From contig OX393565.1 in NCBI GenBank assembly GCA_947652115.1, positions 11,979,429 to 12,043,428 of the forward strand: a DNA stretch of 64,000 bases, written 5' to 3'. Origin of the DNA: Blastomussa wellsi (lineage: Eukaryota; Cnidaria; Anthozoa; Scleractinia; Plerogyridae). The translations under genes were made by a program, and so were the position numbers. A model generated the notes under the pieces. That model did no database searches. It saw only the letters and a list, made by a program, of their open reading frames with translations, and was not told where the DNA came from. Shown here piece by piece: positions 4,082 through 63,144 of this stretch (position 1 is the stretch's first letter; each line of letters starts with the position of its first letter).

Positions 4082-4084
4082 TTA

Positions 4085-6930: not shown

Positions 6931-6959
6931 AATCAGATAATGTGTACACGCCAGGTTTG

Positions 6960-7060: not shown

Positions 7061-7184
7061 AAATTTAAGAGTGAAAGTAATGGATTTTTTTAAATAAGTA
7101 TAAAGTTATACAATAGGAAACAGACGGATTCCACTGAAATGTATGATAATGGTATAAATTTGAGAAATTTGAAAGAATTCTTGC

Positions 7185-11548: not shown

Positions 11549-11648
11549 AAAGGTTCACGTCCGATCACTGAAGTTAAGCCCTGTTGGGCAGGGTTAGTAT
11601 TGGGATGGGTAGCAGACAGGAATCTTAAAACCCTGTTGTTGGCTCTTT
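11524..11648 (+). pseudogene. 5S rRNA-like sequence
   Basis: Diverged but nearly full-length 5S similarity. GTCCGATCACTGAAGTTAAG (11560-11579) is the conserved loop and A-box region. GGGCAGGGTTAGTATTGGGATGGG follows, which matches the 3' domain through the position of the C box but with a changed GATGGGTAGCAG. It ends in TGTTGTTGGCTC and a T-run terminator (11645-11650). The 5' part is the most diverged. Substitutions and lost pairings make a functional 5S unlikely. It could be a 5S pseudogene or the head of a 5S-derived (SINE3-type) element; no SINE body follows. Confidence 0.75.
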
Positions 11649-12600
11649 TTCCTTTTTGTCGTCGTAATTTTCAGTGAATATATCAGTACAGTGAAATTTG
11701 AAGTCCTTCCTTTGTCCTTAAGGCTTCTTAATTTACACTTTTTTTGTGTAATCTTCCCAAACCCCGCAATCAAATTAACAATCGTCCAGTTTTGTTGTCA
11801 TTTCTTGTTTCTTCTTCGACATTTTGTTGGGCAATAATAATTTAATACAGGGAAAGGATATTATAAAGGATATCAGAAAAGGCGAAAAAAAAGTATTGAC
11901 TCGAACTTGACTTGTGACTCGAACTTGACTCGTGTTATGAGGAAACTCGCTCTTCATAAACTATTAAAATAGGACGGAAGACCGAATGAATATACAGAAT
12001 GACAAATGAACAAATGTCACCAACATAGGAGCCGCAGGCCTGCCAACCCGATTTTTTCTATAAAGTACTTTTCACGTTACCGGTACTTATTTTGCCGGTA
12101 GGAAAAATAGGGGGTCCATGGACCCAGTCCATAGAGGGGGTCCATGTTTTGTCCTCTCCCAATCAATACAGCTATTTGTATTTCACAGCAACCGCTTCGG
12201 CGACTAAAAATGGAAACAGAGCTTTCTTCCGCTCTTCCGTTCGATGTTATATCTTAAAATTGATATTTGGTTAATAACAAAAGATTTTTTCTGTTACTTA
12301 ATTTTATAGAAAGAGTTTTGTAGAAACGAACTCCTTACACCATCGCGACTGTGTTTACACATGCGCATGCTTGTCGATCAACAGACAGATAAAAAAAATC
12401 TCGGAGGCCAAAAGATTTCGGTCCTTCATTTTCTGTTCGTGTTGTAAAGCACCGAGATAGACATAAACGGCCATTGGGTTCCTTTGTTTGGATTTTTTGG
12501 CTGAAAACTTTCGAGGCTCCCAAAAGAGGCTCGCGGCTCGCAAAAAAGGGCTCGGGCTCGCAGGCTCGCAGAATAGCTTCCCCCAGTAAGAGTGATTTTA

Positions 12601-13110
12601 CTGCGTGGTTGTGAGGGTGAAATGTGAGGGTGAATGAAATTCCATCGTTGTTTTCTCTCTGTGACGTTTGTAGTGCTGACTGTCGATCAATTTGTTTGGC
12701 GCGGTGATTGCCCGCTTGAACAACAGAAGCAGGATAGCCGCGTCCGTAGGAGTCGTCACTACAAAGACAGCGAAGTCAAAGAAACTGAGAATAAGGAATG
12801 GAATTCTTGACATGTGATGGATGTGAGGACGAATACAACAAATAACTATGAGAATCTGTGGGTTTGTAGTGCACACTGGTGCATAAACCGTTGTCTTCGA
12901 TAGAAACTTTTATATCCAGGAATGCTAAGGAAGTATCGGAAATTTCCCAGGCATATTCAAGGGCAGGATGAAACGAATTAACAGCGGTTATAAATTGATT
13001 GAGATCCTCTCTGGTAGAAGAGGTAGCGCCGATACAGTCGTCAATGTAGCGACGATAGAGTTCAGGTCTTGGGCCGTTGTATTGATCGAAAAATTTGTGT
13101 TCAATGTAGC
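12601..13110 (-). pseudogene. PLE reverse transcriptase fragment (unit 1)
   Basis: The 5' half of the split Penelope-like element. Minus-strand translation gives GYIEHKFFDQYNG, then RRYIDDC (the RT motif C, catalytic Asp pair), ATSSTREDLNQF, WEISDTSLAFLDIKVS, VHYKPTDSHSYLL and SSSHPSHVKNSIPYSQFL. A stop follows where Arg is expected (near 12776), then a small deletion/frame change, and the thumb region resumes as GYPASVVQAG and FTLTFHPHNHAVKS up to the insertion boundary. Upstream (>13110) similarity ends abruptly in an inverted minisatellite monomer; the N-terminal 38 residues of the apparent 148-codon frame are satellite. RT motifs before YIDD are missing, so it is dead. Confidence 0.85.
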
Positions 13111-13166
13111 CCACACTTCTTACTACATATATGTATACATTCTGTCCACAGCCCACAGGTCCTCGG
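13111..13166 (-). repeat. single inverted minisatellite monomer at the PLE breakpoint
   Basis: CCCACACTTCTTACTACATA and the following GTCCACAGCCCACAGGTCCTC are the reverse complement of one minisatellite monomer of 13839-14240. It abuts the truncated RT exactly, so the PLE 5' truncation and this piece arose in one rearrangement. It is present in every unit at the same relative place. Confidence 0.8.
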
Positions 13167-13838
13167 GTCAACTTCCCATTACATACACATATGCACTCAA
13201 AGATGTCGGCTGAAGTTGTCAATTGAGTATTTTGCTCTTTATTTTACAAGCGATGGCATTATATGTTTACGCAGACGTAAATATTGTATTTACGCTTAAG
13301 AGCCCTGTTTGTTAATGGAACCTGTGAGCGGGTATTGTCGAACGGGATTTATTTATTTAATCTAAGTGCAGTGAAAAAAAGTGGAAAGGGGGAAAATGTA
13401 GTAAACTTATTATATGCCCTTTAAGTACATTTATTTTAGGATAAAAAGAAAATTAGAGAGGAAAAAGTAGACGTATAGTAAATAGATATATAATTATGGA
13501 CTCAATACTGAGCAAAATGAAACATAGCATCCTAAAATAGTTGGACAAAATTTTCTTATATTTATTCTAAAAGATTCTGCATTTAAGTGTTGCAGGGACG
13601 CACTTCGGGTAGCATAATTTTTTGCTCAGATACTAAAGATAGATTAAGATTTGACGGCTTTATCAATTAGATGATCATAAAATAGTAGACACATATATAA
13701 TTTACAAATATCAGGCAACTTAATGAGGCCAAGGTTTACATAATGGCGAGTAATATGATTATACAAGTTGACAATACAGAAGTTCTTTGTGGATATGGAT
13801 AAATTCCAATGCCCAACCTGGCTCATGGTCGACAAAGG
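13167..13838. other. no recognised gene (unit 1; repeated in all units)
   Basis: AT-rich spacer between the inverted monomer and the minisatellite. It has a short imperfect palindrome around 13270-13295 (GCAGACGTAAATATTGTATTTACGCTTAAG). No coding frame. Confidence 0.5.
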
Positions 13839-14240
13839 ACAGAATGTACATATGTAGTAGCAAGAAGTATGGACCTGAGAACATGTGGGCTTTGGACAGA
13901 ATGTACATATGACCCATATGTATGTAGCACGAAGTGTGGACCTGAGGACCTGTGGGCTTTGGACAGAATGTACATATGACCCATATGTATGTAGCACGAA
14001 GTGTGGACCTGAGGACCTGTGGGCTGTGGACAGAATGTATACATATATGTAGTAAGAAGTGTGGACCTGAGGACCTGTGGGCTGTTGACAGAATGTATAC
14101 ATATATGTAGTAAGAAGTGTGGACCATGTGGACCTGTGGACCTGTGGGGTGTGGACAGAATGTATACTGACATATATGTAGTAAGAAGTGTGGACCTGTG
14201 GGTTGTGGACAGAATGTATACATATGTGTAGTAAGAAGTG
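13839..14240 (+). repeat. minisatellite, about 7 monomers of 54-68 bp (unit 1)
   Basis: Each monomer starts ACAGAATGTA(TA)CATAT, continues GTAGTAAGAAGTGTGGACCT and ends with CCTGTGGGCTGTGG. Length varies through an internal CATATGACCCATATGTATG block and extra GGACCTGTGGACC. Four overlapping reading frames are open across it on both strands only because the repeat is stop-poor. Copies in other units: 21295-21696, 28537-28938, 35779-36180, 43020-43421, 50262-50663 and 57504-57912, the last with 7 extra bases. Confidence 0.9.
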
Positions 14241-14480
14241 CATGTGGATGCGTGGAACCGTATTTGCATGAAGTGTTAGTTTACGTACTGTGTCTGTAAT
14301 TTATGCCTTGGAAAAATGATTTACGCTAATTATGTAGTTACACGGAATTAATTTATTTCTAGCGTGATGACGTGTACTGTGCTCCGGTACCTACAGAAAC
14401 AACTCAAACTTCCCGCGTGCTCCATAACTCGATAGTGCACGCTATAAAGCATGAACCAATTGTAAAGCAAAGACCATTCT

Positions 14481-14916
14481 CCTCCCCAGAGCCGCTTGTC
14501 CCTCTTTGCCGGCTGGGCCTGTGCACGAGGAACAAGTGGCTCTGGGGACACACGATTTGATTCGCTGAAATCAAACAAAGGGAATCCAATCAGATCAGCC
14601 GTTTTAATCCTGCTAACGATAAAGGATTTTAAAACGGCTGATGTGATTGGACTCCCTTTGTTTGAATTCAGCGAATCAAATCGTTTGTCCCCTGAGCCAC
14701 TTGTTTCTCGTGCACAGGCCCAGCCAGCTAAGAGGGACAATTAAACTGCTACACCGTGCTGACGAGTTCCAATAAGAACGAAACAGCTGTCCACGGTTGC
14801 AGCCTTGCTTTATCGATTTCTGTCGGGTTGTTGTCTCGCAAAGTCAATTTTTTCACGTAGTGTCAGCCTTGCAGTAATGTTTGTGTAAGAGGGATAAGCG
14901 GCTCTGGGGACGAGAA
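14481..14916. repeat. outer inverted repeat around the foldback MITE (unit 1)
   Basis: CCTCCCCAGAGCCGCTTGTC (14481-14500) is matched in reverse complement by AAGAGGGATAAGCGGCTCTG and GGGAC (14887-14911). The foldback element thus lies inside, or is nested with, a larger element of the CCCCAGAGCC type also seen at 4085-4153. Confidence 0.6.
14496..14740. mobile_element. 245-bp foldback MITE (unit 1)
   Basis: Two arms of about 115 bp are inverted repeats around a loop of about 13 nt near 14610-14622. The left arm starts TTGTCCCTCTTTGCCGGCTG; the right arm ends CAGCCAGCTAAGAGGGACAA. Both strands therefore translate to nearly the same short peptide (MSL-AGWACAR...), which is an artefact of symmetry. 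Copies at 21952-22196, 29194-29438, 36436-36680, 43677-43921, 50919-51163 and 58168-58412. Confidence 0.9.
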
Positions 14917-14984
14917 TCAGCAAAGACTAGACCCAACCTCGTTCCCAGGGTCTCTCATCTTCCCAAGTCTCCCACTGATTTTGG

Positions 14985-15016
14985 CCAATTTGGCGCGAGT
15001 GTTACGAAAATGGCGG
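14985..15016 (+). promoter_or_regulatory. CCAAT, E2F-like and YY1-like cluster (unit 1)
   Basis: CCAAT at 14985-14989, TTTGGCGCG (E2F consensus TTTSSCGC) at 14989-14997 and AAAATGGCGG (YY1-like) at 15007-15016. They lie within 32 bp and 70-100 bp upstream of a candidate start codon (15084). Such clusters mark TATA-less housekeeping promoters in animals. It recurs in every unit (plus 7456 for unit 2, then the unit period). Function is inference. Confidence 0.35.
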
Positions 15017-15083
15017 AGGAGAGAAACTGAGCTGGTTGGAATAACTTCGTTTTGATCGTTACGCGATAAGTTGCAGCTTAATT

Positions 15084-15214
15084 ATGGCCAGCCCTTGGTC
15101 AAGACAGCCATTTAAAGGAAAGGTAACCCCCAAGAACCGTGATTCCAGTCCCTTTATCCTGCGTCAGTCTTTAAACTATTCTTTAGCTTTTGGAGACTCA
15201 GCCGCAAGCACAAG
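15084..15214 (+). CDS. candidate first coding exon (unit 1), product unknown
   Basis: An ATG at 15084, downstream of the promoter-like cluster, opens a 44-codon frame beginning MASPWSRQPFKGK. It runs to a good donor, ACAAG|GTAAAG, at 15214/15215; the frame would end TAA within the donor. A short upstream ATG (15010) encodes only MAEERN. No family is recognised and no second exon can be assigned. On the minus strand, 15267-15386 is also open with a perfect donor, so the direction of any gene here is uncertain. Repeated in all seven units. Confidence 0.25.
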
Positions 15215-15266
15215 GTAAAGCTTGAAATAACTGATAGGCATAATTAGAGAATTAAACGAGACTTAC

Positions 15267-15386
15267 CTGTAAGTTGAAATTTGATCGAGATTCTTCTGAG
15301 TTACATAATGCTGTGAGATTAGAACTGGCAGTTTGCCTCTTGTGTCTTTCTTTTGACCCACGTGAAAGGCCTTTGATGCCGAACTA
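15267..15386 (-). CDS. candidate internal exon on the opposite strand (unit 1)
   Basis: Minus strand: a weak acceptor (ATACTGTTAG), then an open frame reading SASKAFHVGQKKDTRGKLP and on to NLDQISTY. It ends at a consensus donor ACAG|GTAAGT (15267/15266). The phase-2 end would join a frame with a stop at about 15188, but the implied intron would be only 36 nt. Product not recognised. A MITE end starts about 15 bp upstream (15403). Confidence 0.25.
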
Positions 15387-15402
15387 ACAGTATCTTGTGC
15401 AT

Positions 15403-15545
15403 AATGCACCAGTCAATGTAAACCCCCGTATCCCCAGGCCGGGACATAACGGGGCATTTGACAAGAGCTCGCTGCTAAAGTTATAAAATGCCCCGCACTC
15501 CGAGGCCAGTTTTTTCTTCTAATCCCCTGCTCTTGTTGAAAAAAA
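15403..15545. mobile_element. MITE fragment, ATGCACCAGTCA family (unit 1)
   Basis: ATGCACCAGTCAATGTAAAC and the following CCCCC match the ends of the element at 6366-6930. An internal inverted pair GGGGCATTT/AAATGCCCC (15459-15495) is present. The opposite end is not found, so it is solo or truncated. Confidence 0.55.
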
Positions 15546-15550
15546 AGGAA

Positions 15551-16385
15551 AGACACAGGCTAGCCTGTGTAGCCGGCGGGATTTGAGGGTGCGAGCTACT
15601 CAGCATTCGCGGGCGAAGCCCACGAGGTCAAGCGGCGAAGCCACGCGAGTGGAAATTTCCCGCCTGCCTCATTGCCTATGGGTTTTGCTAGCCGTCCACT
15701 TTTATCGCCTTCAGTGATCTAATTAAATAAGCCAATCAGAGAGCGAGGTGTAATGTGTTTATTGACAGGTTTGTGTAGAGCGAACAAACCTCAAAACCAC
15801 AAACTAATTACTAATCCTATGTTGGTGACATAAATTCGGTCTTCCAACCCTTTTTTGCTTTCTATTTATTTGTGATAGCGCTATTTGAAGGCATTTTAAA
15901 GTTGAGCACAATGTCAAGAGGTCATAGGACTTCGCAGGTTTGCACGGTTTCCCACGGGTTCCTGACAGTTTCCTATAGCTGTTAGTAGAATTTGACACCT
16001 TAGTAATTTGCATATGTTTTGTTGGTGCAGTTTGTTTTGGCTCATTACTACTTTCACGATATGTTTAGCTCTCAAAATGTTAGTTCTGGAAGGACCAGAG
16101 CTGAAATTTTCCGTGAAGTTCATGACAACTTGCATTGAATATTTGCGGTAACGCACCCCCCATTAAATTAACATTTGATTGGCATTTCACCACTATCAGC
16201 TAATCCAAAATTCGCATTCACTGGGTGAACGCATAATTCCAAGAAACCCATCCATTAGATCAGGTGGGATTTTAACTCAACTCCTCACCAATCTCTCCAT
16301 GGCTTTGCCGCTCCAATGACGGCCTCCCCAAAACAAATTCACTTCACCGCGAATCCTGCCAGCTACACAGGCTAGACACAGGCTA
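15551..16385. mobile_element. about 810-bp DNA transposon with 12-bp flanking direct repeats (unit 1)
   Basis: Inverted ends are GCCTGTGTAGCCGGCGGGAT at 15563-15582 and its diverged reverse complement ATCCTGCCAGCTACACAGGC at 16353-16372. Both sides are flanked by AGACACAGGCTA (15551-15562 and 16374-16385), a candidate target duplication of about 11-12 bp. That is longer than the 8 or 9 bp of hAT or Mutator, though part of it resembles the terminus itself. No transposase frame. Repeated in all units (unit 2: 23007-23841). Confidence 0.6.
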
Positions 16386-17099
16386 ACGTAAATAGTTTAA
16401 ACTTTATTTGTCAAAAAACCTGTGCCACCGCATACAATATTTTTCAAGTGTCATAAAATATTTGTGGTGTCTTTGTCTACTGTTAACACAAATGTAAATT
16501 ATAAAATTTCAAAGAAATATTAAATCGTACATGTTAGTTCAAGAGGGTCAAGTGTTCAGAGTGTTACTAAATGTAGATTCAAAATGTAGATCAAAATTTG
16601 AATTAGATTTATTTATGCAACACACACTTACACAAAATATGACTAAATTTGTTTTCTTCCATTGACTCATCAATATTTTTGACACAAAACCCTGCAGACC
16701 ATTCTAAATTTATGAGCGCCAATTGTTTCAAATCAGGGTAGCTGCTCTCTCAAGTGTCCGGTCAGTTCATTCCACCACAGGGGAGAAGCGCAGGCTCCGG
16801 TTCCCAAACAGCGGCAAGTAATTGAGCCTAGGTAGTCTTGCACATGCTTTATGTCGGAAACAAAGTCGGTGTCCCCTACATTTTTTTTTTTACATTTCTG
16901 ACATAAGTAACTCATTATGGTAACCTGACCATAGTAAAAAATCGATCGGGGAGAATTTTTTCGCGCGAACATCCTTAAAGAACATATTTAACTTTTCTGT
17001 TTCACCGCCTTGTTTCCAGGTAGTCATGACAATACCAGTGTCCTGTAGGCTCTCTTGCAATTCCAACGCAAGAAAAATAGAACCATTGAACTGGACAAT
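16386..17099. other. no recognised gene (unit 1)
   Basis: AT-rich. One minus-strand frame (16733-16972, 79 codons) has a CQKCKKK and a CRCLGTGACA cysteine cluster and ends LREQLP, but I recognise no family. It may be a transposon remnant. Confidence 0.4.
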
Positions 17100-17318
17100 A
17101 CATTAATTTATCTGTCTTCAGGCGGAAATTTCTAAGCGTTTTCATGTATATTTAAAGCGCCATTAGCCCAATCAATATCATCCGGGTATCATTAGAAAGC
17201 TCTTTCCCTCCTGCAGAACTGAGGTAAATGAGATTCCTATTTTGGTCAAAGCTGATGATGTCAGAAGTGGAACAAAGGTCAAGGTCTATCATTGCCGGTT
17301 TAGGAGTCAATGGGTTAA
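17100..17318 (-). mobile_element. piggyBac-type MITE end (unit 1)
   Basis: Reverse-orientation homologue of 278-460: the end AGGAGTCAATGGGTTAA (17302-17318) and the internal TTTGGTCAAAGCTGATGATG and CTTTCCCTCCTGCAGAA blocks correspond. Here the TTAA target site is intact. The other end is not identified. Confidence 0.5.
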
Positions 17319-17833
17319 AAAGAACAAAAATAGCTAGAAATAAAGTTTAAAATCCGAACAGAACTATGCTTTACTAAATATGTTTTTTACCAGTTCACTT
17401 CGTTTAAAATCCTTTGGTCAACAAAAGACGTAGACCGCGTAGCTTCGCTCGCATGCTTGCTTTCCTCATTGCTTGCTCTTGCTTGCTTTCCTCCCATCTA
17501 GGCCCTGGCGGATTGTGCTAGCATAATTTTTGGCATAATTGGATAAAAAAAGCATAGTTTTTTAAACGAGCACTGCCACGGCATAATTTGCCAATTTTTA
17601 GCACTTTTTGGGGCATGAATTCATAAAATTTAGTAAAGATGGTGTATTTTGTACAGAAATAAATTCAATTTAGGTAGTATGTTCTTTTTGATTCTGGCAG
17701 TATATACAATAGACTTGCTCCAAGTCGCTCGTTTGGGTGCGCTGGAGTCCGAATTAAAATGGCGAGTGAGACCGCTAGATATGGAGGGCGCACGCTGGCT
17801 TGAATATCAAAATGGTGGCCCGGAACAAACGAC

Positions 17834-17861
17834 TTTTCTCACCTGTAGCGCGGTGAGAAAA
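17834..17861. other. perfect 10-bp hairpin next to a CRE site (unit 1)
   Basis: TTTTCTCACC - 8 nt - GGTGAGAAAA, followed at once by a full palindromic CRE (TGACGTCA, 17865-17872). Repeated in each unit. Confidence 0.6.
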
Positions 17862-17864
17862 ATG

Positions 17865-17872
17865 TGACGTCA
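17865..17872. promoter_or_regulatory. CRE-type CREB/ATF palindrome TGACGTCA (unit 1)
   Basis: An exact 8-bp consensus. It may be a regulatory site or simply part of a mobile-element sequence. Confidence 0.35.
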
Positions 17873-18466
17873 CGGGTGGATTTTACCACTGGTGACACTT
17901 TATTTGGCTGTCAATCAAAATAGTGCAAGCGAATGGAAGCGCATGCTCTGTTGGCAAAATTTGCGAGGTTAGTGCGCTCTGCTCGCGTGATGCTGGTACT
18001 TTTCTGTTTGTTTGCTAGTCTTTTAGCAGATTTGTCCAGATAAAAGCAAACAAGATTGTCCACAATTAATTATTAGTCTTGTTAGACGAGCTAGTTAGTT
18101 ATGGGGTTGAAAGAATTGGTTTCATCAAAGCTTTGAAGAAAATCTAAACAATCGCTACTCGCAATCTCAACACACACCATGGCGCGCTCCAAACTGCACA
18201 CGGCACACGACAATGATGCCAATAAGAAAAAAGAAACCAATTTGGTCCCAATGAAATGATGCCATTTCGCGGCAAAAATCGTCAGCCAGAAGCGATTTCC
18301 TGCAAGTGACACAAGTCGCTCGTTTTGAGCCATTTGTGCATTCCGTTGTCTTTTCGCATGCGATTTCAAAACGATCTTCTTCAAATGACTCTACCGTGTC
18401 TACTGATACAAAGAAAAAACAAGGGTCTTGGGGCAAGTCTATATATACAAGTGTGAGCAATACATT

Positions 18467-18997
18467 TCATCCCCGGCAGATCCCCGCCTGTCCCCCGGTA
18501 CTCTGCGTTAGGTGGTGCCTGTCGTAGCCACGCAGGTTGTGAAACACCTGGTATTCGTAGTTTTTGTGGTGGCTGATTTTGTCCCTTTCTTGCATTTTCA
18601 TTCTTGGCCCCACGAACCCCCATTGCTTGAGCANNNNNNNNNNNNNNNNNNNNNNNNNNNNNNNNNNNNNNNNNNNNNNNNNNNNNNNNNNNNNNNNNNN
18701 NNNNNNNNNNNNNNNNNNNNNNNNNNNNNNNNNNNNNNNNNNNNNNNNNNNNNNNNNNNNNNNNNNNNNNNNNNNNNNNNNNNNNNNNNNNNNNNNNNNN
18801 NNNNNNNNNNNNNNNNNNNNNNNNNNNNNNNNNCCATTGCTTGAGCACCTCGTAATAGACAAGCTTTGGCTGCAATATTGGCCTGTATTGTGGTCGCTTG
18901 AGTCTAAAAAGTCATCCTGCACCAAACTTTTGTTGTGCCCATGGCATTCTGTTGCGGCTTTGTGCTTTTGCCAGTCTTCTGCCGTCCTCTTCCAGCT
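18467..18997 (-). pseudogene. decayed family-B DNA polymerase fragment (unit 1, spans gap)
   Basis: Minus-strand reading shows, in one frame, TAEDWQKHKAATECH, NKSLVQDDFLD and DHNTGQYC, the Cys/His-rich block that precedes the exonuclease region in protein-primed (Polinton/Maverick- or plasmid-type) PolB. In a second frame YYEVLKQWGF and then VFHNLRGYD follow; HNLRGYD fits Exo II (Nx2-3YD). A frame change lies between the blocks and a stop follows within 25 codons, so only a broken remnant exists. Polymerase motifs A-C are not seen. In unit 1 it is interrupted by the 200-N gap. Confidence 0.55.
18634..18833. other. assembly gap, 200 N
   Basis: Exactly 200 N. The 14 bases CCATTGCTTGAGCA stand immediately before and again immediately after the gap, but occur once at this place in units 2-7. 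Gap plus repeat (214 bp) accounts for the excess length of unit 1, apart from a 1-bp indel. Confidence 0.97.
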
Positions 18998-19009
18998 TTA
19001 CAGTACACC

Positions 19010-19230
19010 TTTGGAGGGTAGTAAGATTTGATTCAATCTACTTTCTTAAGAAACCGGGATAAGCTCCAGCCTGATGGGCCATTAGGCCCGAATGCAGACT
19101 TTTTACTTTCTTAACCGACACTTCAACAGTGTTTAATTTATCAAGTATAACTTGTAGTTTTTGAGTGACGGTATCCATCATCTCCAGCACTTGAATTATT
19201 TTGTCCTGATCTCAATCTGTGGGTCAAGTG
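19010..19230. other. no recognised gene (unit 1)
   Basis: Contains a GGGCC-ATTA-GGCCC hairpin (19076-19089) within a stretch that may be the end of a dispersed repeat. No coding frame. Confidence 0.4.
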
Positions 19231-19369
19231 CCATATACCAAGTCAATAGCAAGTCCTGAAGTATGTCACAAAGAACACAACAATGGGGCCTAGCCCTTAA
19301 ACAATAGCACTATAGACTTCACATAATAGAACGACGCAATAGTGCCTATTGTATTGACTTGGTATATGG
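19231..19369. mobile_element. 139-bp MITE with perfect 18-bp inverted ends (unit 1)
   Basis: CCATATACCAAGTCAATA (19231-19248) and TATTGACTTGGTATATGG (19352-19369) are exact reverse complements. No coding capacity. Copies lie at 26473-26611 and at the corresponding places of later units. Confidence 0.8.
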
Positions 19370-19685
19370 AGCGTCACCCCAAAATTGACTTTTCATTTTT
19401 TTGGTTCACTGGCTTCTCTATTGAAGCTGATTCCTTCGTTTAGATAAAAATTGACTATTGTTTTAGCCATAGGCCCTTGGAGAAATGACTAAAGAGTTCC
19501 AAATATTATGGGCGGGTTCGAACACACGTCTTCACGCCACTGTGACCTCGCCCCAAAGACGCATGGATATGCTTAAAGAAAAAGTATGCAGACTTGTGGC
19601 TGCAGTGTTGAATTGAGCTAACCATTGCTAGCCTGAGTGGGACTTGTTGTATCATAATAACACCCCCATTAGCTATCTCTAAGCA
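19370..19685. other. no recognised gene; unit end
   Basis: Contains one B-box-like GGGTTCGAACACACG (19515-19529) without an A box. Ends at the unit junction. Confidence 0.4.
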
Positions 19686-20056
19686 GCTCTTCCGTTCGAT
19701 GTTATATCTTAAAATTGATATTTGGTTAATAACAAAAGATTTTTTCTGTTACTTAATTTTATAGAAAGAGTTTTGTAGAAACGAACTCCTTACACCATCG
19801 CGACTTTGTTTACACATGCGCATGTTTGTCGATCAACAGACAGATAAAAAAAAATCTCGGAGGCCAAAAGATTTCGGTCCTTCATTTTCTGTTCGTGTTG
19901 TAAAGCACCGAGATAGACATAAACGGCCATTGGGTTCCTTTGTTTGGATTTTTTGGCTGAAAACTTTCGAGGCTCCCAAAAGAGGCTCGCGGCTCGCAAA
20001 AAAGGGCTCGGGCTCGCAGGCTCGCAGAATAGCTTCCCCCAGTAAGAGTGATTTTA

Positions 20057-20566
20057 CTGCGTGGTTGTGAGGGTGAAATGTGAGGGTGAATGAAATTCCA
20101 TCGTTGTTTTCTCTCTGTGACGTTTGTAGTGCTGACTGTCGATCAATTTGTTTGGCGCGGCGATTGCCCGCTTGAACAACAGAAGCAGGATAGCCGCGTC
20201 CGTAGGAGTCGTCACTACAAAGACAGCGAAGTCAAAGAAACTGAGAATAAGGAATGGAATTCTTGACATGTGATGGATGTGAGGACGAATACAACAAATA
20301 ACTATGAGAATCTGTGGGTTTGTAGTGCACACTGGTGCATAAACCGTTGTCTTCGATAGAAACTTTTATATCCAGGAATGCTAAGGAAGTATCGGAAATT
20401 TCCCAGGCATATTCAAGGGCAGGATGAAACGAATTAACAGCGTTTATAAATTGATTGAGATCCTCTCTGGTAGAAGAGGTAGCGCCGATACAGTCGTCAA
20501 TGTAGCGACGATAGAGTTCAGGTCTTGGGCCGTTGTATTGATCGAAAAATTTGTGTTCAATGTAGC
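20057..20566 (-). pseudogene. PLE reverse transcriptase fragment (unit 2)
   Basis: Same fragment and same lesions as in unit 1. Ser/Asn-level differences only (INAVNSF where unit 1 has ITAVNSF). Confidence 0.85.
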
Positions 20567-25922: not shown

Positions 25923-26239
25923 TCATCCCCGGCAGATCCCCGCCTGTCCCCCGGTACTCTGCGTTAGGTGGTGCCTGTCGTAGCCACGCAGGTTGTGAAA
26001 CACCTGGTATTCGTAGTTTTTGTGGTGGCTGATTTTGTCCCTTTCTTGCATTTTCATTCTTGGCCCCACGAACCCCCATTGCTTGAGCACCTCGTAATAG
26101 ACAAGCTTTGGCTGCAATATTGGCCTGTATTGTGGTCGCTTGAGTCTAAAAAGTCATCCTGCACCAAACTTTTGTTGTGCCCATGGCATTCTGTTGCGGC
26201 TTTGTGCTTTTGCCAGTCTTCTGCCGTCCTCTTCCAGCT
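25923..26239 (-). pseudogene. decayed family-B DNA polymerase fragment (unit 2)
   Basis: Uninterrupted copy; the Exo II-like HNLRGYD is encoded at about 25975-25998. Other copies: 33165-33481, 40407-40723, 47648-47964, 54890-55206 and 62139-62455. Confidence 0.55.
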
Positions 26240-26927
26240 TTACAGTACACCTTTGGAGGGTAGTAAGATTTGATTCAATCTACTTTCTTAAGAAACCGGG
26301 ATAAGCTCCAGCCTGATGGGCCATTAGGCCCGAATGCAGACTTTTTACTTTCTTAACCGACACTTCAACAGTGTTTAATTTATCAAGTATAACTTGTAGT
26401 TTTTGAGTGACGGTATCCATCATCTCCAGCACTTGAATTATTTTGTCCTGATCTCAATCTGTGGGTCAAGTGCCATATACCAAGTCAATAGCAAGTCCTG
26501 AAGTATGTCACAAAGAACACAACAATGGGGCCTAGCCCTTAAACAATAGCACTATAGACTTCACATAATAGAACGACGCAATAGTGCCTATTGTATTGAC
26601 TTGGTATATGGAGCGTCACCCCAAAATTGACTTTTCATTTTTTTGGTTCACTGGCTTCTCTATTGAAGCTGATTCCTTCGTTTAGATAAAAATTGACTAT
26701 TGTTTTAGCCATAGGCCCTTGGAGAAATGACTAAAGAGTTCCAAATATTATGGGCGGGTTCGAACACACGTCTTCACGCCACTGTGACCTCGCCCCAAAG
26801 ACGCATGGATATGCTTAAAGAAAAAGTATGCAGACTTGTGGCTGCAGTGTTGAATTGAGCTAACCATTGCTAGCCTGAGTGGGACTTGTTGTATCATAAT
26901 AACACCCCCATTAGCTATCTCTAAGCA

Positions 26928-51600: not shown

Positions 51601-54600
51601 ATTCTTTAGCTTTTGGAGACTCAGCCGCAAGCACAAGGTAAAGCTTGAAATAACTGATAGGCATAATTAGAGAATTAAACGAGACTTACCTGTAAGTTGA
51701 AATTTGATCGAGATTCTTCTGAGTTACATAATGCTGTGAGATTAGAACTGGCAGTTTGCCTCTTGTGTCTTTCTTTTGACCCACGTGAAAGGCCTTTGAT
51801 GCCGAACTAACAGTATCTTGTGCATAATGCACCAGTCAATGTAAACCCCCGTATCCCCAGGCCGGGACATAACGGGGCATTTGACAAGAGCTCGCTGCTA
51901 AAGTTATAAAATGCCCCGCACTCCGAGGCCAGTTTTTTCTTCTAATCCCCTGCTCTTGTTGAAAAAAAAGGAAAGACACAGGCTAGCCTGTGTAGCCGGC
52001 GGGATTTGAGGGTGCGAGCTACTCAGCATTCGCGGGCGAAGCCCACGAGGTCAAGCGGCGAAGCCACGCGAGTGGAAATTTCCCGCCTGCCTCATTGCCT
52101 ATGGGTTTTGCTAGCCGTCCACTTTTATCGCCTTCAGTGATCTAATTAAATAAGCCAATCAGAGAGCGAGGTGTAATGTGTTTATTGACAGGTTTGTGTA
52201 GAGCGAACAAACCTCAAAACCACAAACTAATTACTAATCCTATGTTGGTGACATAAATTCGGTCTTCCAACCCTTTTTTGCTTTCTATTTATTTGTGATA
52301 GCGCTATTTGAAGGCGTTTTAAAGTTGAGCACAATGTCAAGAGGTCATAGGACTTCGCAGGTTTGCACGGTTTCCCACGGGTTCCTGACAGTTTCCTATA
52401 GCTGTTAGTAGAATTTGACACCTTAGTAATTTGCATATGTTTTGTTGGTGCAGTTTGTTTTGGCTCATTACTACTTTCACGATATGTTTAGCTCTCAAAA
52501 TGTTAGTTCTGGAAGGACCAGAGCTGAAATTTTCCGTGAAGTTCATGACAACTTGCATTGAATATTTGCGGTAACGCACCCCCCATTAAATTAACATTTG
52601 ATTGGCATTTCACCACTATCAGCTAATCCAAAATTCGCATTCACTGGGTGAACGCATAATTCCAAGAAACCCATCCATTAGATCAGGTGGGATTTTAACT
52701 CAACTCCTCACCAATCTCTCCATGGCTTTGCCGCTCCGATGACGGCCTCCCCAAAACAAATTCACTTCACCGCGAATCCTGCCAGCTACACAGGCTAGAC
52801 ACAGGCTAACGTAAATAGTTTAAACTTTATTTGTCAAAAAACCTGTGCCACCGCATACAATATTTTTCAAGTGTCATAAAATATTTGTGGTGTCTTTGTC
52901 TACTGTTAACACAAATGTAAATTATAAAATTTCAAAGAAATATTAAATCGTACACGTTAGTTCAAGAGGGTCAAGTGTTCAGAGTGTTACTAAATGTAGA
53001 TTCAAAATGTAGATCAAAATTTGAATTAGATTTATTTATGCAACACACACTTACACAAAATATGACTAAATTTGTTTTCTTCCATTGACTCATCAATATT
53101 TTTGACACAAAACCCTGCAGACCATTCTAAATTTATGAGCGCCAATTGTTTCAAATCAGGGTAGCTGCTCTCTCAAGTGTCCGGTCAGTTCATTCCACCA
53201 CAGGGGAGAAGCGCAGGCTCCGGTTCCCAAACAGCGGCAAGTAATTGAGCCTAGGTAGTCTTGCACATGCTTTATGTCGGAAACAAAGTCGGTGTCCCCT
53301 ACATTTTTTTTTTTACATTTCTGACATAAGTAACTCATTATGGTAACCTGACCATAGTAAAAAATCGATCGGGGAGAATTTTTTCGCGCGAACATCCTTA
53401 AAGAACATATTTAACTTTTCTGTTTCACCGCCTTGTTTCCAGGTAGTCATGACAATACCAGTGTCCTGTAGGCTCTCTTGCAATTCCAACGCAAGAAAAA
53501 TAGAACCATTGAACTGGACAATACATTAATTTATCTGTCTTCAGGCGGAAATTTCTAAGCGTTTTCATGTATATTTAAAGCGCCATTAGCCCAATCAATA
53601 TCATCCGGGTATCATTAGAAAGCTCTTTCCCTCCTGCAGAACTGAGGTAAATGAGATTCCTATTTTGGTCAAAGCTGATGATGTCAGAAGTGGAACAAAG
53701 GTCAAGGTCTATCATTGCCGGTTTAGGAGTCAATGGGTTAAAAAGAACAAAAATAGCTAGAAATAAAGTTTAAAATCCGAACAGAACTATGCTTTACTAA
53801 ATATGTTTTTTACCAGTTCACTTCGTTTAAAATCCTTTGGTCAACAAAAGACGTAGACCGCGTAGCTTCGCTCGCATGCTTGCTTTCCTCATTGCTTGCT
53901 CTTGCTTGCTTTCCTCCCATCTAGGCCCTGGCGGATTGTGCTAGCATAATTTTTGGCATAATTGGATAAAAAAAGCATAGTTTTTTAAACGAGCACTGCC
54001 ACGGCATAATTTGCCAATTTTTAGCACTTTTTGGGGCATGAATTCATAAAATTTAGTAAAGATGGTGTATTTTGTACAGAAATAAATTCAATTTAGGTAG
54101 TATGTTCTTTTTGATTCTGGCAGTATATACAATAGACTTGCTCCAAGTCGCTCGTTTGGGTGCGCTGGAGTCCGAATTAAAATGGCGAGTGAGACCGCTA
54201 GATATGGAGGGCGCACGCTGGCTTGAATATCAAAATGGTGGCCCGGAACAAACGACTTTTCTCACCTGTAGCGCGGTGAGAAAAATGTGACGTCACGGGT
54301 GGATTTTACCACTGGTGACACTTTATTTGGCTGTCAATCAAAATAGTGCAAGCGAATGGAAGCGCATGCTCTGTTGGCAAAATTTGCGAGGTTAGTGCGC
54401 TCTGCTCGCGTGATGCTGGTACTTTTCTGTTTGTTTGCTAGTCTTTTAGCAGATTTGTCCAGATAAAAGCAAACAAGATTGTCCACAATTAATTATTAGT
54501 CTTGTTAGACGAGCTAGTTAGTTATGGGGTTGAAAGAATTGGTTTCATCAAAGCTTTGAAGAAAATCTAAACAATCGCTACTCGCAATCTCAACACACAC

Positions 54601-55894
54601 CATGGCGCGCTCCAAACTGCACACGGCACACGACAATGATGCCAATAAGAAAAAAGAAACCAATTTGGTCCCAATGAAATGATGCCATTTCGCGGCAAAA
54701 ATCGTCAGCCAGAAGCGATTTCCTGCAAGTGACACAAGTCGCTCGTTTTGAGCCATTTGTGCATTCCGTTGTCTTTTCGCATGCGATTTCAAAACGATCT
54801 TCTTCAAATGACTCTACCGTGTCTACTGATACAAAGAAAAAACAAGGGTCTTGGGGCAAGTCTATATATACAAGTGTGAGCAATACATTTCATCCCCGGC
54901 AGATCCCCGCCTGTCCCCCGGTACTCTGCGTTAGGTGGTGCCTGTCGTAGCCACGCAGGTTGTGAAACACCTGGTATTCGTAGTTTTTGTGGTGGCTGAT
55001 TTTGTCCCTTTCTTGCATTTTCATTCTTGGCCCCACGAACCCCCATTGCTTGAGCACCTCGTAATAGACAAGCTTTGGCTGCAATATTGGCCTGTATTGT
55101 GGTCGCTTGAGTCTAAAAAGTCATCCTGCACCAAACTTTTGTTGTGCCCATGGCATTCTGTTGCGGCTTTGTGCTTTTGCCAGTCTTCTGCCGTCCTCTT
55201 CCAGCTTTACAGTACACCTTTGGAGGGTAGTAAGATTTGATTCAATCTACTTTCTTAAGAAACCGGGATAAGCTCCAGCCTGATGGGCCATTAGGCCCGA
55301 ATGCAGACTTTTTACTTTCTTAACCGACACTTCAACAGTGTTTAATTTATCAAGTATAACTTGTAGTTTTTGAGTGACGGTATCCATCATCTCCAGCACT
55401 TGAATTATTTTGTCCTGATCTCAATCTGTGGGTCAAGTGCCATATACCAAGTCAATAGCAAGTCCTGAAGTATGTCACAAAGAACACAACAATGGGGCCT
55501 AGCCCTTAAACAATAGCACTACAGACTTCACATAATAGAACGACGCAATAGTGCCTATTGTATTGACTTGGTATATGGAGCGTCACCCCAAAATTGACTT
55601 TTCATTTTTTTGGTTCACTGGCTTCTCTATTGAAGCTGATTCCTTCGTTTAGATAAAAATTGACTATTGTTTTAGCCATAGGCCCTTGGAGAAATGACTA
55701 AAGAGTTCCAAATATTATGGGCGGGTTCGAACACACGTCTTCACGCCACTGTGACCTCGCCCCAAAGACGCATGGATATGCTTAAAGAAAAAGTATGCAG
55801 ACTTGTGGCTGCAGTGTTGAATTGAGCTAACCATTGCTAGCCTGAGTGGGACTTGTTGTATCATAATAACACCCCCATTAGCTATCTCTAAGCA
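48653..55894. repeat. tandem unit 6
   Basis: 7,242 bp. Shares C at 49359 with unit 4. Private variants GCTCCGATGAC (near 52738), TACACGTTAG (near 52954) and ACTACAGAC (near 55521). Confidence 0.95.
49024..49533 (-). pseudogene. PLE reverse transcriptase fragment (unit 6)
   Basis: Carries the WEISGTS variant shared with unit 4. Confidence 0.85.
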
Positions 55895-58800
55895 GCTCTT
55901 CCGTTCGATGTTATATCTTAAAATTGATATTTGGTTAATAACAAAAGATTTTTTCTGTTACTTAATTTTATAGAAAGAGTTTTGTAGAAACGAACTCCTT
56001 ACACCATCGCGACTTTGTTTACACATGCGCATGTTTGTCGATCAACAGACAGATAAAAAAAAATCTCGGAGGCCAAAAGATTTCGGTCCTTCATTTTCTG
56101 TTCGTGTTGTAAAGCACCGAGATAGACATAAACGGCCATTGGGTTCCTTTGTTTGGATTTTTTGGCTGAAAACTTTCGAGGCTCCCAAAAGAGGCTCGCG
56201 GCTCGCAAAAAAGGGCTCGGGCTCGCAGGCTCGCAGAATAGCTTCCCCCAGTAAGAGTGATTTTACTGCGTGGTTGTGAGGGTGAAATGTGAGGGTGAAT
56301 GAAATTCCATCGTTGTTTTCTCTCTGTGACGTTTGTAGTGCTGACTGTCGATCAATTTGTTTGGCGCGGTGATTGCCCGCTTGAACAACAGAAGCAGGAT
56401 AGCCGCGTCCGTAGGAGTCGTCACTACAAAGACAGCGAAGTCAAAGAAACTGAGAATAAGGAATGGAATTCTTGACATGTGATGGATGTGAGGACGAATA
56501 CAACAAATAACTATGAGAATCTGTGGGTTTGTAGTGCACACTGGTGCATAAACCGTTGTCTTCGATAGAAACTTTTATATCCAGGAATGCTAAGGAAGTA
56601 TCGGAAATTTCCCAGGCATATTCAAGGGCAGGATGAAACGAATTAACAGCGTTTATAAATTGATTGAGATCCTCTCTGGTAGAAGAGGTAGCGCCGATAC
56701 AGTCGTCAATGTAGCGACGATAGAGTTCAGGTCTTGGGCCGTTGTATTGATCGAAAAATTTGTGTTCAATGTAGCCCACACTTCTTACTACATATATGTA
56801 TACATTCTGTCCACAGCCCACAGGTCCTCGGGTCAACTTCCCATTACATACACATATGCACTCAAAGATGTCGGCTGAAGTTGTCAATTGAGTATTTTGC
56901 TCTTTATTTTACAAGCGATGGCATTATATGTTTACGCAGACGTAAATATTGTATTTACGCTTAAGAGCCCTGTTTGTTAATGGAACCTGTGAGCGGGTAT
57001 TGTCGAACGGGATTTATTTATTTAATCTAAGTGCAGTGAAAAAAAGTGGAAAGGGGGAAAATGTAGTAAACTTATTATATGCCCTTTAAGTACATTTATT
57101 TTAGGATAAAAAGAAAATTAGAGAGGAAAAAGTAGACGTATAGTAAATAGATATATAATTATGGACTCAATACTGAGCAAAATGAAACATAGCATCCTAA
57201 AATAGTTGGACAAAATTTTCTTATATTTATTCTAAAAGATTCTGCATTTAAGTGTTGCAGGGACGCACTTCGGGTAGCATAATTTTTTGCTCAGATACTA
57301 AAGATAGATTAAGATTTGACGGCTTTATCAATTAGATGATCATAAAATAGTAGACACATATATAATTTACAAATATCAGGCAACTTAATGAGGCCAAGGT
57401 TTACATAATGGCGAGTAATATGATTATACAAGTTGACAATACAGAAGTTCTTTGTGGATATGGATAAATTCCAATGCCCAACCTGGCTCATGGTCGACAA
57501 AGGACAGAATGTACATATGTAGTAGCAAGAAGTATGGACCTGAGAACATGTGGGCTTTGGACAGAATGTACATATGACCCATATCATCCGTGTATGTAGC
57601 ACGAAGTGTGGACCTGACGACCTGTGGGCTTTGGACAGAATGTACATATGACCCATATGTATGTAGCACGAAGTGTGGACCTGAGGACCTGTGGGCTGTG
57701 GACAGAATGTATACATATATGTAGTAAGAAGTGTGGACCTGAGGACCTGTGGGCTGTTGACAGAATGTATACATATATGTAGTAAGAAGTGTGGACCATG
57801 TGGACCTGTGGACCTGTGGGGTGTGGACAGAATGTATACTGACATATATGTAGTAAGAAGTGTGGACCTGTGGGTTGTGGACAGAATGTATACATATGTG
57901 TAGTAAGAAGTGCATGTGGATGCGTGGAACCGTATTTGCATGAAGTGTTAGTTTACGTACTGTGTCTGTAATTTATGCCTTGGAAAAATGATTTACGCTA
58001 ATTATGTAGTTACACGGAATTAATTTATTTCTAGCGTGATGACGTGTACTGTGCTCCGGTACCTACAGAAACAACTCAAACTTCCCGCGTGCTCCATAAC
58101 TCGATAGTGCACGCTATAAAGCATGAACCAATTGTAAAGCAAAGACCATTCTCCTCCCCAGAGCCGCTTGTCCCTCTTTGCCGGCTGGGCCTGTGCACGA
58201 GGAACAAGTGGCTCTGGGGACACACGATTTGATTCGCTGAAATCAAACAAAGGGAATCCAATCAGATCAGCCGTTTTAATCCTGCTAACGATAAAGGATT
58301 TTAAAACGGCTGATGTGATTGGACTCCCTTTGTTTGAATTCAGCGAATCAAATCGTTTGTCCCCTGAGCCACTTGTTTCTCGTGCACAGGCCCAGCCAGC
58401 TAAGAGGGACAATTAAACTGCTACACCGTGCTGACGAGTTCCAATAAGAACGAAACAGCTGTCCACGGTTGCAGCCTTGCTTTATCGATTTCTGTCGGGT
58501 TGTTGTCTCGCAAAGTCAATTTTTTCACGTAGTGTCAGCCTTGCAGTAATGTTTGTGTAAGAGGGATAAGCGGCTCTGGGGACGAGAATCAGCAAAGACT
58601 AGACCCAACCTCGTTCCCAGGGTCTCTCATCTTCCCAAGTCTCCCACTGATTTTGGCCAATTTGGCGCGAGTGTTACGAAAATGGCGGAGGAGAGAAACT
58701 GAGCTGGTTGGAATAACTTCGTTTTGATCGTTACGCGATAAGTTGCAGCTTAATTATGGCCAGCCCTTGGTCAAGACAGCCATTTAAAGGAAAGGTAACC

Positions 58801-61800
58801 CCCAAGAACCGTGATTCCAGTCCCTTTATCCTGCGTCAGTCTTTAAACTATTCTTTAGCTTTTGGAGACTCAGCCGCAAGCACAAGGTAAAGCTTGAAAT
58901 AACTGATAGGCATAATTAGAGAATTAAACGAGACTTACCTGTAAGTTGAAATTTGATCGAGATTCTTCTGAGTTACATAATGCTGTGAGATTAGAACTGG
59001 CAGTTTGCCTCTTGTGTCTTTCTTTTGACCCACGTGAAAGGCCTTTGATGCCGAACTAACAGTATCTTGTGCATAATGCACCAGTCAATGTAAACCCCCG
59101 TATCCCCAGGCCGGGACATAACGGGGCATTTGACAAGAGCTCGCTGCTAAAGTTATAAAATGCCCCGCACTCCGAGGCCAGTTTTTTCTTCTAATCCCCT
59201 GCTCTTGTTGAAAAAAAAGGAAAGACACAGGCTAGCCTGTGTAGCCGGCGGGATTTGAGGGTGCGAGCTACTCAGCATTCGCGGGCGAAGCCCACGAGGT
59301 CAAGCGGCGAAGCCACGCGAGTGGAAATTTCCCGCCTGCCTCATTGCCTATGGGTTTTGCTAGCCGTCCACTTTTATCGCCTTCAGTGATCTAATTAAAT
59401 AAGCCAATCAGAGAGCGAGGTGTAATGTGTTTATTGACAGGTTTGTGTAGAGCGAACAAACCTCAAAACCACAAACTAATTACTAATCCTATGTTGGTGA
59501 CATAAATTCGGTCTTCCAACCCTTTTTTGCTTTCTATTTATTTGTGATAGCGCTATTTGAAGGCGTTTTAAAGTTGAGCACAATGTCAAGAGGTCATAGG
59601 ACTTCGCAGGTTTGCACGGTTTCCCACGGGTTCCTGACAGTTTCCTATAGCTGTTAGTAGAATTTGACACCTTAGTAATTTGCATATGTTTTGTTGGTGC
59701 AGTTTGTTTTGGCTCATTACTACTTTCACGATATGTTTAGCTCTCAAAATGTTAGTTCTGGAAGGACCAGAGCTGAAATTTTCCGTGAAGTTCATGACAA
59801 CTTGCATTGAATATTTGCGGTAACGCACCCCCCATTAAATTAACATTTGATTGGCATTTCACCACTATCAGCTAATCCAAAATTCGCATTCACTGGGTGA
59901 ACGCATAATTCCAAGAAACCCATCCATTAGATCAGGTGGGATTTTAACTCAACTCCTCACCAATCTCTCCATGGCTTTGCCGCTCCAATGACGGCCTCCC
60001 CAAAACAAATTCACTTCACCGCGAATCCTGCCAGCTACACAGGCTAGACACAGGCTAACGTAAATAGTTTAAACTTTATTTGTCAAAAAACCTGTGCCAC
60101 CGCATACAATATTTTTCAAGTGTCATAAAATATTTGTGGTGTCTTTGTCTACTGTTAACACAAATGTAAATTATAAAATTTCAAAGAAATATTAAATCGT
60201 ACATGTTAGTTCAAGAGGGTCAAGTGTTCAGAGTGTTACTAAATGTAGATTCAAAATGTAGATCAAAATTTGAATTAGATTTATTTATGCAACACACACT
60301 TACACAAAATATGACTAAATTTGTTTTCTTCCATTGACTCATCAATATTTTTGACACAAAACCCTGCAGACCATTCTAAATTTATGAGCGCCAATTGTTT
60401 CAAATCAGGGTAGCTGCTCTCTCAAGTGTCCGGTCAGTTCATTCCACCACAGGGGAGAAGCGCAGGCTCCGGTTCCCAAACAGCGGCAAGTAATTGAGCC
60501 TAGGTAGTCTTGCACATGCTTTATGTCGGAAACAAAGTCGGTGTCCCCTACATTTTTTTTTTTACATTTCTGACATAAGTAACTCATTATGGTAACCTGA
60601 CCATAGTAAAAAATCGATCGGGGAGAATTTTTTCGCGCGAACATCCTTAAAGAACATATTTAACTTTTCTGTTTCACCGCCTTGTTTCCAGGTAGTCATG
60701 ACAATACCAGTGTCCTGTAGGCTCTCTTGCAATTCCAACGCAAGAAAAATAGAACCATTGAACTGGACAATACATTAATTTATCTGTCTTCAGGCGGAAA
60801 TTTCTAAGCGTTTTCATGTATATTTAAAGCGCCATTAGCCCAATCAATATCATCCGGGTATCATTAGAAAGCTCTTTCCCTCCTGCAGAACTGAGGTAAA
60901 TGAGATTCCTATTTTGGTCAAAGCTGATGATGTCAGAAGTGGAACAAAGGTCAAGGTCTATCATTGCCGGTTTAGGAGTCAATGGGTTAAAAAGAACAAA
61001 AATAGCTAGAAATAAAGTTTAAAATCCGAACAGAACTATGCTTTACTAAATATGTTTTTTACCAGTTCACTTCGTTTAAAATCCTTTGGTCAACAAAAGA
61101 CGTAGACCGCGTAGCTTCGCTCGCATGCTTGCTTTCCTCATTGCTTGCTCTTGCTTGCTTTCCTCCCATCTAGGCCCTGGCGGATTGTGCTAGCATAATT
61201 TTTGGCATAATTGGATAAAAAAAGCATAGTTTTTTAAACGAGCACTGCCACGGCATAATTTGCCAATTTTTAGCACTTTTTGGGGCATGAATTCATAAAA
61301 TTTAGTAAAGATGGTGTATTTTGTACAGAAATAAATTCAATTTAGGTAGTATGTTCTTTTTGATTCTGGCAGTATATACAATAGACTTGCTCCAAGTCGC
61401 TCGTTTGGGTGCGCTGGAGTCCGAATTAAAATGGCGAGTGAGACCGCTAGATATGGAGGGCGCACGCTGGCTTGAATATCAAAATGGTGGCCCGGAACAA
61501 ACGACTTTTCTCACCTGTAGCGCGGTGAGAAAAATGTGACGTCACGGGTGGATTTTACCACTGGTGACACTTTATTTGGCTGTCAATCAAAATAGTGCAA
61601 GCGAATGGAAGCGCATGCTCTGTTGGCAAAATTTGCGAGGTTAGTGCGCTCTGCTCGCGTGATGCTGGTACTTTTCTGTTTGTTTGCTAGTCTTTTAGCA
61701 GATTTGTCCAGATAAAAGCAAACAAGATTGTCCACAATTAATTATTAGTCTTGTTAGACGAGCTAGTTAGTTATGGGGTCGAAAGAATTGGTTTCATCAA

Positions 61801-63144
61801 AGCTTTGAAGAAAATCTAAACAATCGCTACTCGCAATCTCAACACACACCATGGCGCGCTCCAAACTGCACACGGCACACGACAATGATGCCAATAAGAA
61901 AAAAGAAACCAATTTGGTCCCAATGAAATGATGCCATTTCGCGGCAAAAATCGTCAGCCAGAAGCGATTTCCTGCAAGTGACACAAGTCGCTCGTTTTGA
62001 GCCATTTGTGCATTCCGTTGTCTTTTCGCATGCGATTTCAAAACGATCTTCTTCAAATGACTCTACCGTGTCTACTGATACAAAGAAAAAACAAGGGTCT
62101 TGGGGCAAGTCTATATATACAAGTGTGAGCAATACATTTCATCCCCGGCAGATCCCCGCCTGTCCCCCGGTACTCTGCGTTAGGTGGTGCCTGTCGTAGC
62201 CACGCAGGTTGTGAAACACCTGGTATTCGTAGTTTTTGTGGTGGCTGATTTTGTCCCTTTCTTGCATTTTCATTCTTGGCCCCACGAACCCCCATTGCTT
62301 GAGCACCTCGTAATAGACAAGCTTTGGCTGCAATATTGGCCTGTATTGTGGTCGCTTGAGTCTAAAAAGTCATCCTGCACCAAACTTTTGTTGTGCCCAT
62401 GGCATTCTGTTGCGGCTTTGTGCTTTTGCCAGTCTTCTGCCGTCCTCTTCCAGCTTTACAGTACACCTTTGGAGGGTAGTAAGATTTGATTCAATCTACT
62501 TTCTTAAGAAACCGGGATAAGCTCCAGCCTGATGGGCCATTAGGCCCGAATGCAGACTTTTTACTTTCTTAACCGACACTTCAACAGTGTTTAATTTATC
62601 AAGTATAACTTGTAGTTTTTGAGTGACGGTATCCATCATCTCCAGCACTTGAATTATTTTGTCCTGATCTCAATCTGTGGGTCAAGTGCCATATACCAAG
62701 TCAATAGCAAGTCCTGAAGTATGTCACAAAGAACACAACAATGGGGCCTAGCCCTTAAACAATAGCACTATAGACTTCACATAATAGAACGACGCAATAG
62801 TGCCTATTGTATTGACTTGGTATATGGAGCGTCACCCCAAAATTGACTTTTCATTTTTTTGGTTCACTGGCTTCTCTATTGAAGCTGATTCCTTCGTTTA
62901 GATAAAAATTGACTATTGTTTTAGCCATAGGCCCTTGGAGAAATGACTAAAGAGTTCCAAATATTATGGGCGGGTTCGAACACACGTCTTCACGCCACTG
63001 TGACCTCGCCCCAAAGACGCATGGATATGCTTAAAGAAAAAGTATGCAGACTTGTGGCTGCAGTGTTGAATTGAGCTAACCATTGCTAGCCTGAGTGGGA
63101 CTTGTTGTATCATAATAACACCCCCATTAGCTATCTCTAAGCAG
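55895..63144. repeat. tandem unit 7 (right edge)
   Basis: 7,249 bp. Has a private 7-bp insertion CATCCGT at about 57585-57591 in the minisatellite, shares C at 57618 with unit 3, and has a private GGGGTCGAAAG near 61780. It ends at CTAAGCAG, then unique sequence TGGGGAATG. Confidence 0.95.
56266..56775 (-). pseudogene. PLE reverse transcriptase fragment (unit 7)
   Basis: Same core as unit 2; last copy before the array ends. Confidence 0.85.

Follow-up and report, generated by a model that had tools for sequence, protein, structure and literature searches.

Here we describe a tandem array that fills most of a 64,000-nucleotide stretch (hereafter the window) of the genome assembly of the coral Blastomussa wellsi (GenBank GCA_947652115.1, contig OX393565.1, forward-strand positions 11,979,429 to 12,043,428). 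Positions 12232-63144 of the window comprise seven near-identical units arranged head to tail on the + strand, the first base of the array being 12232 rather than 12231, as a first-pass annotation had it. Unit 1 (12232-19686) contains a gap of 200 Ns; unit 2 (19687-26928) is 7242 bp long and serves as the reference from which unit coordinates are counted; and it is followed by unit 3 (26929-34170), unit 4 (34171-41412), unit 5 (41413-48653; 7241 bp), unit 6 (48654-55895) and unit 7 (55896-63144; 7249 bp), the last of which carries one 7-bp insertion. Start-to-start distances are 7242 bp in four of six cases, 7241 bp in one and 7455 bp in one, the last being that of unit 1 with its gap.

The junction between consecutive units, at which CTAAGCAG meets CTCTTCCG, occurs in six identical copies within the array. 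Over their whole length units 3-7 are 99.86-99.97% identical to unit 2, and the two pieces of unit 1 on either side of the gap match it at 99.91% and 100%. Self-comparison of the window at an offset of 7242 gave values of ∼1.0 across ∼19000-34200 and 42000-50200; in the rest of the array the register is lost, whether through the gap, through a deletion of 1 bp or in the last unit. Identity between units on this scale is beyond chance, and with seven units, six identical junctions and 14 variant events in total the seven-copy, 7.24-kb head-to-tail array proposed by the first-pass annotation is confirmed.

Unit variation and the assembly gap

Alignment of the seven units, with the pieces of unit 1 joined across the gap, yielded 12 single-nucleotide polymorphism (SNP) sites, one 1-bp indel in a run of A and the 7-bp insertion of unit 7. 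Pairs of units are separated by 2-9 events (mean 4.76 over 7.24 kb, or 6.6e-4 per bp), and these low counts fit the recent amplification or ongoing homogenisation that had been suggested previously. All seven units have distinct sets of variants, which argues against looping by the assembler, and unit 1 carries three private SNPs (alignment columns 120, 757 and 3670). Some variants are common to units that are not neighbours, namely units 1 and 5 (a SNP and the A-run deletion), units 4 and 6 (one SNP) and units 3 and 7 (one SNP), as expected from exchange between units. We rejected a higher-order period of four units, since in 52% of draws three randomly chosen pairs show two or more equal lags.

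The assembly gap (18634-18833) has the 14 bases CCATTGCTTGAGCA on either side, so that the two contigs that join within the array end in phase with each other and overlap by 14 bp. For random contig ends in a 7242-bp unit, agreement this close is expected in ∼0.4% of cases by simple ratio. A run of 200 Ns is a customary gap size in scaffolding, and the flanking sequence examined, ∼20 kb to the left and ∼30 kb to the right, contains no Ns. Because chance would rarely bring contig ends into such agreement, the gap either interrupts a continuous stretch or may stand for an integral number of missing units. Seven is thus the count of the assembly, and the true number of units may differ, as the gap interrupts unit 1; the earlier count holds for the assembled sequence and is qualified by a gap that the first-pass annotation did not mention.

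The same observations bear on whether the array could be an assembly artefact, with fewer true units or with two haplotype arrays chained as one. Such an origin is consistent with the in-phase contig ends at the gap and with the variants common to units 1 and 5 and to units 3 and 7, which lie four apart, as chained haplotypes would. However, equal lags of this kind arise readily at random, and units 1 and 5, 2 and 6, and 3 and 7 differ by 4, 5 and 2 events, respectively, where alleles of an outbred organism would usually differ by more. Furthermore, graph looping does not produce units whose variant sets all differ and whose neighbours are 2-7 events apart. We therefore regard an artefact as unlikely: the assembly error that had been raised as an option is weakened by the unit-specific variants and retains its force for the copy number.

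Composition of the unit and its surroundings

Five pieces of the unit, together covering everything but unit 3602-4145, were searched against the available genome sequence, with the best 40 candidates of each search scored, so that the counts given here are lower bounds. The genome searched seems to be partial, as matches fell on 14 contig numbers, 12 of which account for ∼332 Mb of the 368 Mb listed. Among the matches listed, those that span a whole piece are confined to the seven units (unit 1 once as two halves). Dispersed copies of parts of the unit, by contrast, occur elsewhere in the genome, and judging from these matches dispersed repeats, set side by side as a mosaic, make up most of the unit, in agreement with its earlier description as a patchwork of dead mobile elements.

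Near its start the unit holds, on the - strand, a putative fragment of the reverse transcriptase (RT) of a Penelope-like element (20050-20570; unit 364-884), with relatives in at least 33 other places at 82-92% identity. Pfam, PDB and NCBIfam gave no match to the fragment; in its copy at locus L008 the stretch is part of one 406-aa frame in which an RT motif is followed, as read by eye, by a GIY-YIG-like end, the arrangement seen in Penelope-like elements. In the left flank, a frame at 10457-10813 with a Pfam GIY-YIG domain (E 5.6e-06) resembles the end of the L008 frame.

The remaining elements are given on the + strand. Dispersed repeat pieces at 20819-21215 (unit 1133-1529), of which a longer relative on contig C5 spans unit 1001-1607 at 82%, are followed by a repeat with a degenerate 54-67-bp minisatellite (21293-21859; unit 1607-2173) related to sequences at C5:10776310-10780123, C19:3623158-3625738 and C8:17722577-17788807; the dispersed relatives of these two segments are 72-99% identical. 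A foldback miniature inverted-repeat transposable element (MITE; 21932-22373; unit 2246-2687), split by an insert that is discussed below, is present at 32 of the 33 next-best places listed outside the array, at 90-99% identity. Further along lie a MITE-like stretch with imperfect inverted ends (23016-23831; unit 3330-4145), the first part of which is represented by a dispersed relative of unit 3328-3601 at C9:19269236 (95%), and a ∼200-bp dispersed repeat (24577-24775; unit 4891-5089) that accounts for 31 of the 35 outside matches listed for its piece of the unit, at 87-93%. A ∼730-bp MITE-like dispersed repeat with imperfect inverted ends (25165-25897; unit 5479-6211) has at least 40 outside matches, mostly at 75-88%, and a 177-bp stretch with 37-bp inverted ends occupies 26454-26630 (unit 6768-6944). 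Relatives elsewhere were also found for unit 3328-3601, 4312-4697, 4766-4882, 4891-5089 and 5268-6211. In 25 sampled loci, 20 of them genome-wide and five beside the window (∼250 kb, of which ∼19 kb was masked), we found two MITE copies, ∼40-60-bp pieces of unit 2175-2231, 3006-3044 and 6605-6665, and, in L009, the end of the array.

Among the matches listed for the 730-bp repeat, those on contig C23 fall at 12212590, 12214623, 12216654, 12218689 and 12224734. These five copies, within C23:12212590-12225347, are spaced at ∼2.03 kb with one step three times larger and, from the positions of the matches, probably belong to a second, independent tandem array with a ∼2.03-kb unit. Their recurrence suggests that tandem growth of transposon-bearing DNA is not unique to the locus described here.

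No gene was recognised in the unit. We scanned 34 of the 35 stop-to-stop frames of at least 60 aa that overlap unit 2 (the omitted frame duplicates another across the junction) against Pfam and obtained no match better than E 0.007; the best, Defensin_beta (E 0.0074) and Zn_ribbon_ZPR1 (E 0.0076), look like chance, as does DUF1361 (E 0.028), with Zn_ribbon_ZPR1 and DUF1361 below their cut-offs. ARAGORN found no transfer RNA (tRNA) in the array, and at gathering scores Rfam returned nothing besides one hammerhead ribozyme per unit. We discarded weaker Rfam matches to MIR4240 (63.6 bits against a gathering score of 200, coinciding with the MITE palindrome), mir-5365 and Ms_IGR-5. On the three scans we rejected an array of ribosomal RNA (rRNA), tRNA or recognisable coding genes: no unit carries the rRNA or tRNA gene that defines such arrays, and the absence of any rRNA match at gathering scores upholds the earlier statement that the array is not ribosomal DNA.

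The first-pass annotation had also assigned the unit a promoter-like core, without a position, and this was not confirmed. At the one promoter candidate examined, the word AAAATGGCGG at unit 2777, the CpG observed/expected ratio is 0.76-0.88, against 0.78 for the unit as a whole, and this position is not distinguished from the rest of the unit; the flanks have ratios of 0.77 (left) and 0.41 (right, 856 bp). Higher values occur at unit 1-250 (1.55; 35% GC) and unit 1001-1250 (1.40), both AT-rich, and a promoter elsewhere in the unit is possible.

The left flank within the window contains a tRNA-Thr (tgt) gene (1713-1792), a broken element resembling a long interspersed nuclear element, with endonuclease and RT domains in different frames (7173-10144), and, just left of the array, a 5S rRNA-like match (11524-11644; 45.6 bits) that could represent either a true 5S gene or a repeat derived from one. 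Beyond the window, ∼17 kb left of the array, L012:3480-5096 is a single frame of 538 aa with U11-48K-like CHHC zinc fingers (Pfam 1.7e-13). The right side of the array looks transposon-rich, with a frame for a DDE_1 transposase at L010:114-1055 (Pfam 3e-27) and long retrotransposon-like frames in L011.

A rival reading is that the units are transcribed into regulatory RNA, for example as a source of PIWI-interacting RNAs (piRNAs) derived from transposon debris. Blocks of old transposon pieces, such as the array contains, are the material of piRNA loci, and the piRNA factor GTSF1 has CHHC zinc fingers, as does the predicted product of the frame to the left of the array; the CpG ratio of up to 1.55 at the start of the unit would also be compatible with a functional array. 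However, a neighbouring gene is no evidence of function, and the window with the highest CpG ratio is just 35% GC. We consider a functional array of this kind very unlikely.

A hammerhead ribozyme in every unit

The single feature returned by Rfam, which the first-pass annotation did not include, is a type I hammerhead ribozyme (22209-22253 in unit 2, + strand) that scores 39.4 bits, above the gathering score of 34, and is present once in each of the seven units with the same strand and score. Alignment with the family model showed that the core is kept, with zero mispairs. The hammerhead has a minimal helix III, whose strand is paired with part of the core in the predicted lowest-energy fold, in which helices I and II do form; this fold has a z-score of -1.7, and its stability is matched or exceeded by 12 of 200 shuffled sequences. 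For amphibian hammerheads in which helix III is weak, poor activity as single motifs and activity as dimers have been described (PMC7229834). Given this precedent and the minimal helix III, self-cleavage by the array hammerhead is uncertain.

The ribozyme lies within a 145-bp insert (22197-22341, + strand) that splits the foldback MITE and has the 12-bp repeat TAAGAGGGAYAA at both flanks, the two copies (22185-22196, TAAGAGGGACAA; 22342-22353, TAAGAGGGATAA) being alike at 11 of 12 positions. All three further MITE copies that were aligned lack the insert at that site. Another MITE copy, at C15:7610643, lies directly beside 78 bp of the insert sequence, which therefore also occurs outside the array. 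In this region (C15:7610600-7611050; L038) the MITE seems to be nested within a relative of the hammerhead insert, the reverse of the nesting seen in the array. No hammerhead reached the gathering score in L008-L013 or L038. Because the insert has its own flanking repeat and lies inside the MITE, the ribozyme most likely arrived as a small mobile element before amplification.

If the array were transcribed through on the + strand, the hammerheads could cut the RNA into 7.24-kb monomers, the ends of which could be joined into circles. We view this prospect as highly improbable, the more so as a lone motif with so small a helix III is less certain to cleave. Were it true, the array would be the longest-period hammerhead satellite known to us and a natural source of giant circular RNAs from transposon debris; either way, the repeated hammerhead offers one easily testable prediction about RNA processing.

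A further proposition is that the ribozyme itself drove the growth of the array by way of RNA circles that were reverse-transcribed, as has been proposed for retrozymes. The regular occurrence of one type I hammerhead on the same strand of all seven units is what such a hammerhead satellite would display. However, the unit is 7.24 kb long, compared with 150-450 bp in the known animal repeats of this type covered by PMC7229834, neither end of the unit falls at the ribozyme, and the ribozyme, placed as it is in an insert inside a MITE, was probably present before amplification. We judge this origin to be extremely improbable.

Origin of the array and comparison with known megasatellites

The explanation that we favour, and consider likely, is that the array is a locus-specific megasatellite (macrosatellite), in which a transposon-laden stretch with no recognised gene was tandemly duplicated and then multiplied and homogenised. 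The first tandem duplication would have occurred at nearly blunt breakpoints through end-joining or replication-template switching, and later multiplication and homogenisation may have proceeded by unequal exchange or gene conversion among units. The duplication junction shows 1 bp of microhomology, the final base of the left flank being also that of the unit, which fits end-joining or template switching; the unit has no bases in common at its start with the beginning of the right flank. Within the window the left flank has no match to the right flank (856 bp), and a 100-bp repeat common to the left flank and the unit is in opposite orientation and far from the breakpoints. Tandem growth through non-allelic homologous recombination that carries transposons along has been proposed from two coral genomes (PMC12314368). 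The array presumably has no function of its own.

Several observations weigh against this account of a locus-specific megasatellite. The gap lies within the array, leaving the copy number and the join of the left flank to units 2-7 unproven by continuous sequence, and contigs C3, C6, C7, C11, C13, C14, C17, C18 and C21 are absent from the matches of the five genome searches, each of which scored the best 40 candidates, so that copies of the array elsewhere are possible. The 1-bp junction fits other origins as well, for example re-insertion of a circle, and the lags of the shared variants carry no signal. Finally, six of the 14 variants fall in the first 760 bp of the unit (binomial 0.0019, for an interval chosen after looking), which this account does not explain.

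On the reading as a megasatellite, the array is ordinary in kind, a young transposon-mosaic megasatellite, and only the hammerhead that recurs in each unit merits a test. The array is young enough that one can still read where the duplication broke and how single variants have spread from unit to unit and, if reads confirm the copy number, it would offer a clean natural case of tandem-array growth without selection for a gene. Titles and abstracts retrieved with queries that named neither locus nor organism contained no description of this locus.

Compared with known systems, the array shares features with retrozymes and with megasatellites. Like animal type I hammerhead retrozymes (PMC7229834), it carries the ribozyme in a short insert flanked by a repeat of more than 4 bp, and a hammerhead core is found in seven of seven units; in contrast to those elements, the insert is a single 145-bp copy that forms no tandem of itself and rides in a unit of 7242 bp rather than a few hundred. 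The macrosatellites TAF11-Like, SST1, PRR20 and ZAV are likewise tandem arrays of large units, for which polymorphism and expression have been demonstrated (PMC3018141), whereas the present array is known from one assembly. The 12-kb Gor1 array at human 8q21.2 was assembled as ∼6 copies around an internal gap, with pulsed-field gels indicating ∼50-150 units (PMC2588610); Gor1 differs in having a gene in every unit, where none is recognised here. The array corresponds to the human gene-less megasatellites with repeating transposon patterns, a recognised class in the account of PMC2588610, which have kilobase units (5.4 kb and ∼6 kb) of several transposon classes arranged head to tail without a gene. 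Several of the large human arrays described there have assembly gaps inside or adjoining them, as here. The B. wellsi array differs in organism and in its repeats, and was seen at one locus in the part of the genome searched; it combines kilobase head-to-tail units of high identity with a repeating pattern of interspersed transposons and no recognised gene, which suggests that gene-less transposon-mosaic megasatellites, described in human, arise in this genome as well.

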